Source: Pedobacter sp. SYSU D00535 (lineage in GTDB: Bacteria > Bacteroidota > Bacteroidia > Sphingobacteriales > Sphingobacteriaceae). From it: 64,000 bases of DNA. Positions 118 through 31,569 of the stretch are shown here, piece after piece; position 1 is the stretch's first letter; every line of letters starts with the position of its first letter. The stretch covers positions 1 to 64,000 of the forward strand of contig NZ_JAFEWD010000012.1 of assembly GCF_017355855.1 (NCBI RefSeq). The letters run 5' to 3'. The notes under the pieces were generated by a model, which was not told the DNA's origin, did not search any database, and was given only the letters and a program-made list of their open reading frames with translations. Position numbers and translations under genes: made by a program.

Positions 118-1926
118 TTACTGACTAAACTTCTTCGCGTTGATCTTTCTTTCATTCTCAGTCAGATAGATCTTTCTCAAGCGCATGCTTTGAGGAGTAA
201 CCTCGATATATTCGTCCGCCTGGATGTACTCCATCGCTTCCTCCAGAGAGAATTTGATAGCAGGAGCAATCCGAACGTTATCATCACTTCCGGAAGCACG
301 CATATTTGTTAATTGCTTTCCTTTAACTACGTTGATCACTAAGTCATTGTCGCGGATATGCTCTCCTAAGATCTGCCCTTCGTAAACTTCTTCTCCCGGA
401 TCAACGAAGAAACGACCTCTGTCCTGAAGTTTATCGATAGAATAGGCTGTTGACTGCCCTTTATCCATTGATACCAATACTCCATTCAGTCGGCCGGGGA
501 TCGATCCTTTCCATGGTTCATACGCTTTAAAGCGGTGGGCCATAATTGCTTCTCCAGCTGTAGCGGTAAGCACGTTGTTCCGCAATCCGATAATACCACG
601 AGAAGGGATGTCGAATTCAAGATGTTGTAAATCGCCCTTTGGCTCCATCACCAACAATTCACCTTTCCGTTGTGTTACCAGCTCGATTACTTTACCAGCT
701 ACCTCCCCCGGAACGTCAACGATCAACGTCTCCACCGGCTCGCATTTAACCCCGTCGATCTCTTTAACAATTACCTGAGGTTGTCCTACCTGCAATTCGT
801 AGCCTTCGCGACGCATTGTCTCGATCAAAACTGACAAGTGAAGAATACCTCTTCCATAAACAAGGTACGCATCAGGAGACTCGGTTTCGATAACCTTTAA
901 AGCAAGGTTCTTTTCCATCTCCTTATATAAACGCTCACGTAAGCGCTGGGAAGTCACAAATTTTCCTTCTTTCCCAAAAAACGGCGAGTTATTGATGGTG
1001 AACAACATGTTCATTGTTGGCTCATCAATTTTAATCACCTCTAGTTGCTCCGGATTTTCAAAGTCTGCAATCGTATCGCCAATATCAAAACCTTCAATAC
1101 CTACTACTGCGCAAATATCTCCTGACCGTACTTCCTGAACCTTGATCTTGCCAAGTCCTTCGAAGGTATAAAGCTCCTTGATCCGGCTCTTCTGAATTTT
1201 TCCATCTCTTTTCACAAGAGATACTGGCATATTTTCCTTGATTGTTCCACGGGCAACACGACCGACAGCAATACGACCAACGAAGGAAGAATAATCAAGT
1301 GAGGTAATTTGCATTTGAAGAGTACCCTCACTAATTGGAGCTGGAGGTATATTTTCCAAAATTGCGTCCATTAGTGGGAAGATATCTTGAGTTGGCGTTT
1401 TCCAATCAGTACTCATCCACCCTTGCTTGGATGAACCATAAATTACCGGAAAATCCAACTGCTCTTCGGTAGCATCCAAGTTAAAGAATAACTCAAAGAT
1501 CTGCTCATAAACCTCTTCCGGGCGACAGTTCTCTTTGTCTACCTTATTAACAACCACAATAGGTTTAAGTCCTAAAGAAAGCGCCTTTTGTGTTACGAAA
1601 CGCGTTTGAGGCATCGCTCCCTCAAACGCATCACACAGAAGCAATACACCATCGGCCATTTTCAGAACCCGCTCTACTTCACCTCCAAAGTCGGCGTGAC
1701 CAGGTGTGTCAATGATGTTGATTTTTACATCTTTATATCGAACTGAAACGTTTTTAGATACGATGGTGATTCCGCGTTCACGCTCCAGGTCATTATTATC
1801 AAGGATAAGCTCGCCAGTTTCCTGATTATCGCGGAAGATAGCGCAGCTGTGTAAGATTTTGTCAACCAGCGTAGTTTTGCCGTGGTCAACGTGTGCAATG
1901 ATTGCAATATTTCTGATATTCTGCAT
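118..1926 (-). CDS. typA: Ribosome-associated GTPase TypA/BipA
   Basis: Translational GTPase of the EF-G/LepA class that binds the 70S ribosome and supports 50S assembly and stress or cold adaptation. Residues 11-18 are the P-loop AHVDHGKT, DTPGH is at 73-77 and NKVD at 127-130, so the G1, G3 and G4 motifs are intact. A beta-barrel domain 2, an EF-G-like domain and the BipA-specific C-terminal part follow. At 602 residues it has the normal family length. The start is supported by a consensus -7 box (TACCTTTG) about 26 bases upstream. It appears to be a single-gene transcript, with a terminator just past the stop and a divergent small gene upstream. Confidence 0.97.
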   Translation of the reverse strand: MQNIRNIAIIAHVDHGKTTLVDKILHSCAIFRDNQETGELILDNNDLERERGITIVSKNVSVRYKDVKINIIDTPGHADFGGEVERVLKMADGVLLLCDAFEGAMPQTRFVTQKALSLGLKPIVVVNKVDKENCRPEEVYEQIFELFFNLDATEEQLDFPVIYGSSKQGWMSTDWKTPTQDIFPLMDAILENIPPAPISEGTLQMQITSLDYSSFVGRIAVGRVARGTIKENMPVSLVKRDGKIQKSRIKELYTFEGLGKIKVQEVRSGDICAVVGIEGFDIGDTIADFENPEQLEVIKIDEPTMNMLFTINNSPFFGKEGKFVTSQRLRERLYKEMEKNLALKVIETESPDAYLVYGRGILHLSVLIETMRREGYELQVGQPQVIVKEIDGVKCEPVETLIVDVPGEVAGKVIELVTQRKGELLVMEPKGDLQHLEFDIPSRGIIGLRNNVLTATAGEAIMAHRFKAYEPWKGSIPGRLNGVLVSMDKGQSTAYSIDKLQDRGRFFVDPGEEVYEGQILGEHIRDNDLVINVVKGKQLTNMRASGSDDNVRIAPAIKFSLEEAMEYIQADEYIEVTPQSMRLRKIYLTENERKINAKKFSQ

Positions 1927-1951
1927 GAAAAATGCGTATAAAAAATTTTGG

Positions 1952-29239: not shown

Positions 29240-30112
29240 CTAATGTAAAACAGTTAGGGATAGGGGCTTTACCTGAATCAGAATTTCCGAATTCACTTCT
29301 TTCGGTTCTCCGTCAACATGAACAGTCTGGGGCTCACTCGTTTCTATACGAATATTCTTACCTTTTATTATTTCGATATACCTTGATTTATCACAACTTT
29401 TCTTAAACATGTGATACCCCATCACCGGAAATTGATACAAGGGGAACGGTTTGACAATGACTACGTCTAGTAATCCGTCTGTCAGCGACGCAGTTGGGGA
29501 AATATGAGCGTTGTTCCCAAATTGAGAGGAGTTTGCTATGCTTATCATAAAAGCTTTCCGCTCTATCGGCACTCCGTCAATCTCCAACTTGTAATATTTC
29601 GGCTTGTAGTTAACGATTTCATTGAAGGTAGCGTTAATATAACCTCGAAGCCCTCGCGACTCTAATTTAGAGAAGCAGTAGCTGATGTGAGCGTCGAATC
29701 CTATCCCCCCAATGTTGAAAAACTTCCAGTTATTCAGGCTAGCTGTGTCGATCGTCTGATAATTTAGTCGGTTGATTGCTCGGATTGCCTTTGGGTGACT
29801 AAGAGGAATGCCTAACGACCGGGCTAAACCATTCCCAGAACCACAGGGGACGATGCCCATCATACTCTGGCTTCCTTCTAAAGCGGAAGCAACTTCGTTA
29901 ATTGTTCCATCACCTCCAACTGCCACAACTATATCTGCCCTTTGCTTTACAGCGTCCTCCGCTAGCTCAAACGCGTGGTTTGGCCGCTGAGTAATAGAAA
30001 ATCGGGGGTCAAAAACGCGCAAATCGAGCGATGATTCAACCAATTTTTCAAACCCCTTTTTGCTTCTACCTCCTGATATAGGATTAATTATGAATACTAC
30101 TTGCCTTTTCAA
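29240..30112 (-). CDS. Diacylglycerol kinase-family lipid kinase (YegS/DgkB type)
   Basis: Soluble lipid kinase that phosphorylates diacylglycerol or a related lipid with ATP. The nucleotide-binding GGDGT motif is at 66-70, preceded by VVAV. The N-terminal INPISGG (9-15) and PCGSGNGLARSL segments are standard. It has 290 residues. The first codon is TTG at 30112. There is no upstream in-frame ATG, and the first internal Met is beyond the essential N-terminal motif, so the TTG start is well supported. It is divergent from metK. Confidence 0.9.
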   Translation of the reverse strand: MKRQVVFIINPISGGRSKKGFEKLVESSLDLRVFDPRFSITQRPNHAFELAEDAVKQRADIVVAVGGDGTINEVASALEGSQSMMGIVPCGSGNGLARSLGIPLSHPKAIRAINRLNYQTIDTASLNNWKFFNIGGIGFDAHISYCFSKLESRGLRGYINATFNEIVNYKPKYYKLEIDGVPIERKAFMISIANSSQFGNNAHISPTASLTDGLLDVVIVKPFPLYQFPVMGYHMFKKSCDKSRYIEIIKGKNIRIETSEPQTVHVDGEPKEVNSEILIQVKPLSLTVLH

Positions 30113-30161: not shown

Positions 30162-30169
30162 TACTTTAG
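30162..30169 (+). promoter_or_regulatory. Possible -7 promoter box of metK
   Basis: TACTTTAG matches TAnnTTTG with one mismatch. A start site about 5-8 bases downstream would place the SAM-II aptamer at the very 5' end of the mRNA, which supports the assignment. Confidence 0.4.
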
Positions 30170-30182
30170 CCTCCGCAAAAAA

Positions 30183-30246
30183 GTGGACTGATTTGCTGTG
30201 TTTTCAAGCTAAAACAAGATTGCAACCACGTAAAAAAAAGTGCTAA
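30183..30246 (+). promoter_or_regulatory. SAM-II riboswitch upstream of metK
   Basis: The layout matches the SAM-II (metA-type) pseudoknot. P1 is GTGG (30183-30186) paired with CCAC (30226-30229). The conserved CTGATTTG loop (30188-30195) follows the 5' arm, TTGCAA (30220-30225) precedes the 3' P1 arm, then comes an A-rich stretch and the GTGCTAA end (30240-30246). GCA (222-224 in the 30 kb block) can pair with TGC (241-243) as P2. A 6-bp extra hairpin (TGTTTT/AAAACA, 30199-30216) is inserted in the P1 loop. It ends 69 bases before the metK ATG. SAM-II normally represses translation or transcription when SAM is abundant. Confidence 0.82.
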
Positions 30247-30315
30247 TTCTGAACTGATTTTTACTTTCCCCGCAACGCATTCCACTGTACATTTAAAAAA
30301 GTTTAGAAAAAAGAT

Positions 30316-31569
30316 ATGCCTTATTTATTTACATCTGAATCTGTATCGGAAGGACATCCGGATAAAGTTGCAGATCAAATCTCTGATGCGCTAATTGACA
30401 ATTTTTTAGCGTGGGATGCCGACTCGAAAGTGGCGTGTGAAACATTGGTAACGACTGGTCAGGTTGTACTTGCCGGAGAAGTGAAGTCTAACACCTATCT
30501 GGACGTGCAGAAAATCACCCGCGATGTGATCCGTAAGATTGGGTATACCAAGTCTGAGTATATGTTTGAAGCGAACTCTTGCGGTATCTTATCGGCAATT
30601 CACGAGCAATCTGCTGATATTAATCAGGGAGTAGATCGTAAGGAAAAGCAAGAACAAGGTGCCGGAGATCAGGGAATGATGTTCGGTTATGCCACTAGCG
30701 AAACGGCAAACTATATGCCGCTGGCCCTGGACCTGGCCCATAAAATTTTAGAAGAATTAGCAGGACTGCGTCGGGATGGAGATGCCATTTCTTACCTCCG
30801 CCCTGATGCAAAATCTCAGGTAACTATCGAATATAGCGATGATCATAAGCCGGTCCGCATTGATGCAATTGTAGTATCAACGCAACATGACGACTTTGAT
30901 ACGGAGGAGAACATGCAGCAGAAGATCCGCGAGGATATTATTAATATTCTAATCCCTCGTGTTAAAGCTCATCTCACTCCAGAACTTCAGGCACTTTTCA
31001 ATGATGATATCAAATATCACATCAATCCTACTGGTAAATTCGTAATTGGCGGCCCTCACGGGGACACCGGCTTAACTGGTAGAAAAATCATCGTTGACAC
31101 TTATGGAGGAAAAGGAGCGCATGGAGGCGGTGCTTTTTCAGGGAAGGATCCATCTAAAGTAGATCGTTCTGCAGCATACGCTACTCGCCATATTGCAAAA
31201 AATATGGTCGCAGCAGGCATCTGTGATGAAATTCTGGTTCAGGTCTCTTATGCGATCGGCGTTAAAGATCCAATGGGAATTTACGTAAATACGTATGGGA
31301 CATCTAAAGTTGATTTAACAGACGGCGAAATTGCTCAAAAAGTATCGCAAATTTTTGACATGACTCCTTACGGGATCGAAACGCGCTTAAAACTTCGCAA
31401 CCCTATATATGCTGAAACTGCTGCCTATGGTCACATGGGCCGGAAGCCAGAAACTGTAACCAAAGTGTTCGAAGGTGCTAACGGCGAGACAAAACAGGTA
31501 GAGGTGGAGCTTTTTACCTGGGAGAAACTTGATTTTGTTGACAAAGTGAAACAAGCTTTCGGCGTTTAA
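30316..31569 (+). CDS. metK: S-adenosylmethionine synthetase
   Basis: Makes S-adenosylmethionine from methionine and ATP in the cytoplasm. It has 417 residues. Signatures are [12 protein letters not shown] near 116-127 (methionine/ATP loop), [20 protein letters not shown] near 241-260, and [19 protein letters not shown] near 264-282. Preceded by a SAM-II riboswitch, so its own product should repress it. Followed by a strong terminator. Confidence 0.97.

Follow-up and report, generated by a model that had tools for sequence, protein, structure and literature searches.

The metK gene of Pedobacter sp. SYSU D00535 is preceded by a SAM-II long-loop riboswitch (RF01726) at the 5' end of its predicted mRNA, and we consider it probable that this element works as a feedback OFF switch via strand exchange. 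With SAM abundant, the RNA would fold into P1 and the SAM-binding pseudoknot. When SAM is scarce, the leader downstream would pair back on the aptamer and unfold it, allowing metK to be expressed. The two folds would exclude each other, and SAM would pick one of them by strand exchange. The element lies in a window of 64,000 nucleotides (positions 1 to 64,000 of contig NZ_JAFEWD010000012.1), by which we mean the whole stretch of DNA that was analysed. Our argument draws on family membership and position of the element, on covariation in an inserted hairpin, and on an excess of clade-matched complementarity between leader and aptamer in the relatives.

The covariance model of RF01726 matches positions 30177-30256 of the forward strand with 46.2 bits (cmscan; gathering score 44 bits; E 1.2e-5 for all 64 kb). 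When 301 bases were scanned against all Rfam families under lax settings, it was the only family listed up to E 10 (E 5.8e-8), RF00521 being absent, and a genome-wide scan found it to be the sole copy in the 4.9-Mb genome (E 2.2e-7). The first-pass annotation had read a SAM-II riboswitch here and suggested a search with RF00521; the class stands at 46.2 bits, and the family is RF01726 instead. The element resembles this family in its core bases, P1, pseudoknot strands, occurrence in Bacteroidota and a score above the curated cut-off. P1 and the conserved strands GATTTG, TTGCAACC and TGCTAA are present in the order of RF01726, and the motifs named beforehand (GTGG/CCAC, GATTTG, TTGCAA and GTGCTAA) are likewise all in place and in the right order. 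According to the cmscan alignment, P1 consists of GTGG (30183-30186) and its partner CCAC (30226-30229). GATTTG (30190-30195), identical in all 12 chosen insert-aptamer sequences, would by analogy supply the L1 third strand of the SAM-binding triplex. GATTGC (30218-30223) contains in its TTGC the pseudoknot 5' strand and is a predicted anti-aptamer target in relatives, and TTGCAA occupies 30220-30225. The linker strand GTAAAAA (30230-30236) can pair with TTTTTAC at 30258-30264 in RNAfold, and GTGCTAA (30240-30246) includes the pseudoknot 3' strand TGCTAA (30241-30246, cmscan alignment). By analogy, we take U30244 to be a SAM-contact position, and the pseudoknot pairing scheme is likewise adopted from the SAM-II structure. 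For the role of GATTTG, the L1-P2b triplex of SAM-II as outlined in PMC5352136 serves as the model.

A SAM/methionine gene lies downstream of the match, as expected of a member of RF01726. The match ends 60 nt before metK (30316-31569, forward strand), whose ORF starts with ATG at 30316 and is an S-adenosylmethionine synthetase by TIGR01034 (515.6 bits, cut-off 309.4, E 7e-155), in agreement with the target named in the first-pass annotation. A SAM-II aptamer with metK as its target is an ordinary member of a known family; we infer SAM as the ligand and SAM-dependent control of metK in the OFF direction. The divergent neighbour of metK (29240-30112, reverse strand) encodes a YegS/Rv2252/BmrU-family lipid kinase.

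Within the window's family, RF01726 was found at E <=0.01 in 238 of 251 genomes, 188 of the 251 being above the cut-off. A sample of 395 genomes from the phylum contains 70 with a match (57 above the cut-off), and a set of 60 that includes the window's own genome contains 35. Thirteen family genomes gave no match (G005, G008, G017, G020, G032, G068, G079, G092, G112, G121, G156, G160 and G268), and 50 of the 238 matching ones have none above the gathering cut-off. Since many family members score near or below the Rfam cut-off, they are easily missed, and an annotation based on the cut-off will skip these 50 of 238. As to gene context, 140 of the 147 loci around RF01726 matches (146 distinct places) hold metK, 136 of these 140 with a parsed aptamer at most 300 nt upstream, and the remaining seven loci without metK (L219-L225) score 28-32 bits, below the cut-off. 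Seen from the gene, the aptamer is present in 42 of the best 80 named metK loci (40 by pattern, L061 and L108 by Rfam), and RF01726 at gathering score in none of the 37 other metK loci with upstream sequence. The presence of SAM-II in Bacteroidota had been taken for a surprise, which it is not: SAM-II was named for the Bacteroides group, with B. thetaiotaomicron listed, in 2005 (Corbino et al., 2005; PMC1273637) and again two years later (Barrick and Breaker, 2007; PMC2258182), and the "SAM-II long loops" of RF01726 were described as Bacteroidetes and marine in 2010 (Weinberg et al., 2010; PMC2864571).

The comparison of leaders is based on 227 loci, which gave 176 parsed metK leaders. The 51 unparsed loci comprise 37 metK loci without the motif, L077 without upstream sequence, seven weak matches, and six loci whose aptamer or near form escaped the pattern and is left out of the leader counts (L034, L061, L108, L152, L155 and L157). 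A subset of 146 of the 176 is non-redundant (downstream 5-mer Jaccard overlap <=0.4 with every kept leader); it includes L109, which is mis-parsed in that GCCAA in the linker was taken as the tail, and counts on 145 leaders are given without it. The sample is not random, as the search-derived loci are the best-scoring ones and 60 further places were hand-picked. In addition, the leaders share descent, which makes the p-values across leaders too small, ancestry being uncorrected in every one of them.

A Bacteroidota-type -7 box, TACTTTAG (30162-30169), with one mismatch to TAnnTTTG, lies 21 nt upstream of P1. In the relatives, the exact form of the box stands 12-26 nt upstream of P1 in 132 of the 146 non-redundant leaders versus a mean of 7.3 in shuffles, the window's one-mismatch form being outside these 132. 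The sigma-A consensus is given as TAnnTTTG at -12 to -5 (PMC9723704), and the position of the box therefore places the aptamer at the predicted mRNA 5' end, near 30174 in the window, as the earlier reading of this box had proposed.

The window's aptamer differs from the RF01726 covariance model in its apical loop, which in the cmscan alignment has 22 nt with a hairpin versus 3 nt in the model. Across the 146 non-redundant leaders, the stretch from GATTTG to TTGC measures 5-7 nt in 95 and 17-36 nt in 51, with no intermediate lengths. All 51 long loops belong to the window's family or to four named Sphingobacteriaceae, and short loops also occur in the window's family; the named hairpin-bearing metK relatives are a Sphingobacterium (L036), a Pedobacter (L052), a Mucilaginibacter MAG (L094) and a Sphingobacteriaceae MAG (L046). 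Fifty of the 51 distinct long inserts are more stable than their own shuffle mean (mean -6.0 versus -3.2 kcal/mol shuffled, p 7e-10; 21 of 51 at p <=0.05), the sole exception being the A/U-rich hairpin of the window. This hairpin (30199-30216) has a 6-bp stem joining 30199-30204 with 30211-30216. Its own energy fails as proof of the stem, as -1.9 kcal/mol is at chance level and 86 of 200 shuffles are equally good, so that support for the stem comes from comparison. Because the 12 insert aptamers have differing stem registers, covariation was counted on seven sequences picked for a common register (L032, L182, L192, L030 and L025 were omitted). In these seven, 97.6% of the stem cells pair, a value as high in none of 500 shuffles and falling to 48-57% with the partner slid. 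Four of the six pairs are altered on both sides, which 6 of 500 shuffles reach, and none of 500 attains the covariation score; the seven sequences show no more kinds of pairs than shuffles do (468 of 500 reach their number). Judged by this sequence comparison and by the long inserts, the extra 6-bp stem in the P1 loop, already noticed in the first-pass annotation, is real. At the level of the family, the loop with the hairpin is a variant, in which the insert most likely extends the aptamer loop at its periphery.

Between the pseudoknot 3' strand and the AUG there are 53-204 nt in the 145 leaders and 69 nt in the window. This downstream leader is more complementary to its own aptamer than dinucleotide shuffles are, with -20.2 versus -15.3 kcal/mol and an excess in 132 of 145 leaders (p 2e-23), or in 134 of 146 if the mis-parsed L109 is included. 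By P1 type, the excess is seen in 86 of 97 GTGG and 46 of 48 GAGG leaders, where counts below the shuffle mean shift by a few per random draw (49/49 versus 46/48 for GAGG). As controls, pairing of the leader with the upstream flank gave no excess (72 of 146, p 0.39), and neither did the metK leaders devoid of SAM-II (18 of 37, p 0.82), of which three carry SAM-I/IV; pairing with the coding region gave a slight one (83 of 146, p 0.014). In unconstrained folds by RNAfold, which ignores pseudoknots and SAM, GATTGC is paired downstream with a probability of 0.60 versus 0.28 in shuffled leaders, P1 forms with 0.12 versus 0.30, and the folding ensemble gains 4.1 kcal/mol in stability.

Besides being complementary, the leaders prefer their own aptamer. 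The own core fits better than cores of the same type in 74 of 97 GTGG leaders (p 5e-9) and 28 of 49 GAGG leaders (p 0.006), and better than cores of the other type in 87 of 97 and 38 of 49, respectively. This preference is explained by matching motifs that are specific for the clade. Both types are enriched in GCAATC, which is complementary to GATTGC (19 of 97 GTGG-type leaders, z 18; 14 of 49 GAGG-type leaders, z 12). TTTTAC is enriched in the GTGG type alone (39 of 97 versus 12.1 shuffled; GAGG type 2 of 49 versus 4.7) and CTTTAG in GAGG-type leaders alone, and reversed control motifs showed no enrichment. The motifs also accompany their partners within the 146 leaders: TTTTAC occurs with a GTAAAA linker in 35 of 70 versus 6 of 76 others (Fisher p 1e-8), CTTTAG with the tail GCTAAAG in 16 of 50 versus 2 of 96 others (p 5e-7), and GTCAAATC or either of two near forms with GATTTGAC in 6 of 17 versus 1 of 129 (p 7e-6). 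A downstream strand that is complementary to the aptamer and changes with it is thus seen across the relatives, and the window alone is not significant.

For the window itself, two anti-aptamer elements are predicted. The first, TTTTTAC (30258-30264), follows from the TTTTAC enrichment in GTGG-type leaders. The second, GCAACGCATTCCACT (30272-30286), comes from RNAfold and the alignment and is not significant alone; here AGTGGA (30182-30187) is predicted to pair with TCCACT (30281-30286), and TTGC (30193-30196) with GCAA (30272-30275). The whole leader folds with -22.3 kcal/mol (z -1.3; 22 of 200 shuffles equally good in RNAfold), and its aptamer-leader complementarity is -14.2 versus -13.1 kcal/mol (p 0.35). 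In both same-genus relatives (L032 and L033) the aptamer-leader energy is matched by none of 60 shuffles, and in the alignment the window has CGCAACGCATTCC where these two have TGCAATC. Given these values, the strand-exchange reading builds on the relatives and not on the window alone.

The leader sequences point to anti-aptamer strand exchange as the switch, which would operate without a Shine-Dalgarno sequence or an intrinsic terminator. Depending on the clade, the anti-aptamer would target the linker strand, GATTGC, L1 or the P1 5' strand. We infer this expression platform as a new one, and since the comparative pattern identifies the strands that are expected to compete, the mechanism is testable with few point mutations. 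Regarding the final step, Rho prefers C-rich, G-poor RNA. C is more frequent than G in 144 of the 146 leaders, compared with 27 of the 37 metK leaders that lack SAM-II (p 6e-9), although this C-richness may simply reflect the G content of the aptamer. SAM would free this C-rich, G-poor leader and thereby let Rho load, a final step that we tentatively favour over translation control. As a tentative extension to Bacteroidota SAM-II switches, it is possible that the SAM-freed leader loads Rho and metK transcription stops, that the anti-aptamer hairpin is the antiterminator, and that its registers are rewritten clade-wise, following the variable bases of the aptamer.

Control of translation could take two other forms. 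A leader strand freed by SAM could pair with the A-rich start region and lower translation at a distance, for which a SAM-II switch in Sinorhizobium offers a precedent (PMC9373788). Enforcing the aptamer changes start-region accessibility by -0.024 versus +0.005 in shuffles (p 1e-4); however, this effect is very small, and the wide variation in leader length disfavours a contact with the start codon, so that we regard control at a distance as rather unlikely. The other form is direct occlusion as in the metX SAM-II and SAM-V switches, whose aptamer fold is related to that of the window and whose own Shine-Dalgarno sequence lies in or next to the pseudoknot, which hides the ribosome binding site. 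A review, in its treatment of these classes, counts SAM-II/V among such switches (PMC10907184). In the window, however, no Shine-Dalgarno sequence is apparent by eye near the AUG at 30316, as expected for Bacteroidota (PMC6847099), and none lies in or beside the pseudoknot. TGCTAA is 69 nt away from the AUG, and in the 145 leaders the distance is 53-204 nt. Direct occlusion would also render the downstream complementarity idle and leave it unexplained, and we hold it to be very improbable.

According to PMC6061858, the majority of SAM-II switches act on transcription, which would speak for SAM-induced intrinsic termination ahead of metK. Yet no intrinsic terminator was found between aptamer and metK in the window, and terminator-like sites occur downstream of the aptamer in 3 of 146 leaders versus 1.0 shuffled (the mis-parsed L109 is one of the three) and in whole leaders in 5 of 146 versus 4.8, which is about chance; intrinsic termination is in our view very improbable. 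A last explanation sees in the element a fossil or chance match that does not switch in this organism, the complementarity of the relatives being irrelevant to the window. The score is just 2 bits above the cut-off, and the window's own hairpin and anti-aptamer are at chance level. But the low score goes with the 22-nt insert, which is absent from the model, RF01726 is found in nearly all genomes of the family (238 of 251), and the family matches that were fetched precede metK; we hold a fossil to be very improbable.

Strand exchange has a counterpart in SAM-I (S-box) switches, in which the leader is likewise in competition with the ligand-bound fold of the aptamer, whereas the SAM-I aptamer is unrelated to SAM-II. 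S-box platforms act through terminators or Shine-Dalgarno sequestration. The SAM-II/metA element RF00521 shares P1, pseudoknot and a SAM/methionine gene with the window's element but differs in that its covariance model remains unmatched here up to E 10. Many of its members have putative intrinsic terminators, as stated in the report on this element (Corbino et al., 2005; PMC1273637), whereas none was found in the window's leader. Among the open-access journal papers listed, there was no description of a SAM-II long-loop platform, its control of metK or an anti-aptamer, and the main-text passages searched of the B. thetaiotaomicron and F. psychrophilum transcriptome papers and of the TaRTLEt paper hold no metK/SAM-II result for Bacteroidota. 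None of these papers explains the action of SAM-II long-loop switches in a phylum with mRNAs devoid of a Shine-Dalgarno sequence.

The same genome also carries two SAM-I elements (RF00162), at G000:C11:509505-509621 (L228) and G000:C1:104355-104464 (L229). One of them precedes a MetX-like gene (best NCBIfam MetX score 343, below the cut-off of 500) followed by homoserine dehydrogenase, and the other a metH-like ORF, named by eye. SAM-I occurs in 248 of 251 family genomes (E <=0.001), and SAM-I together with SAM-II in 235 of 251; a passage in Barrick and Breaker (2007; PMC2258182) states that no species with both was found. In the Bacteroidia MAG of L108, a SAM-I (1619-1727, reverse strand) and a SAM-II (1849-1931, forward strand) stand back to back within the 400 bases upstream of metK. 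SAM-I/IV (RF01725) replaces SAM-II at metK in L041 (1827-1932), L044 (1851-1946) and L080 (1822-1926), and with these three leaders different SAM aptamers serve one gene in Bacteroidota. Eight flavobacterial leaders (L038, L043, L047, L049, L050, L066, L212 and L214) have GAGG, not GTGG, in P1, and the same eight contain an insertion at another site as well: the linker from P1 to the pseudoknot 3' strand is enlarged by a sequence that looks like a hairpin by eye.
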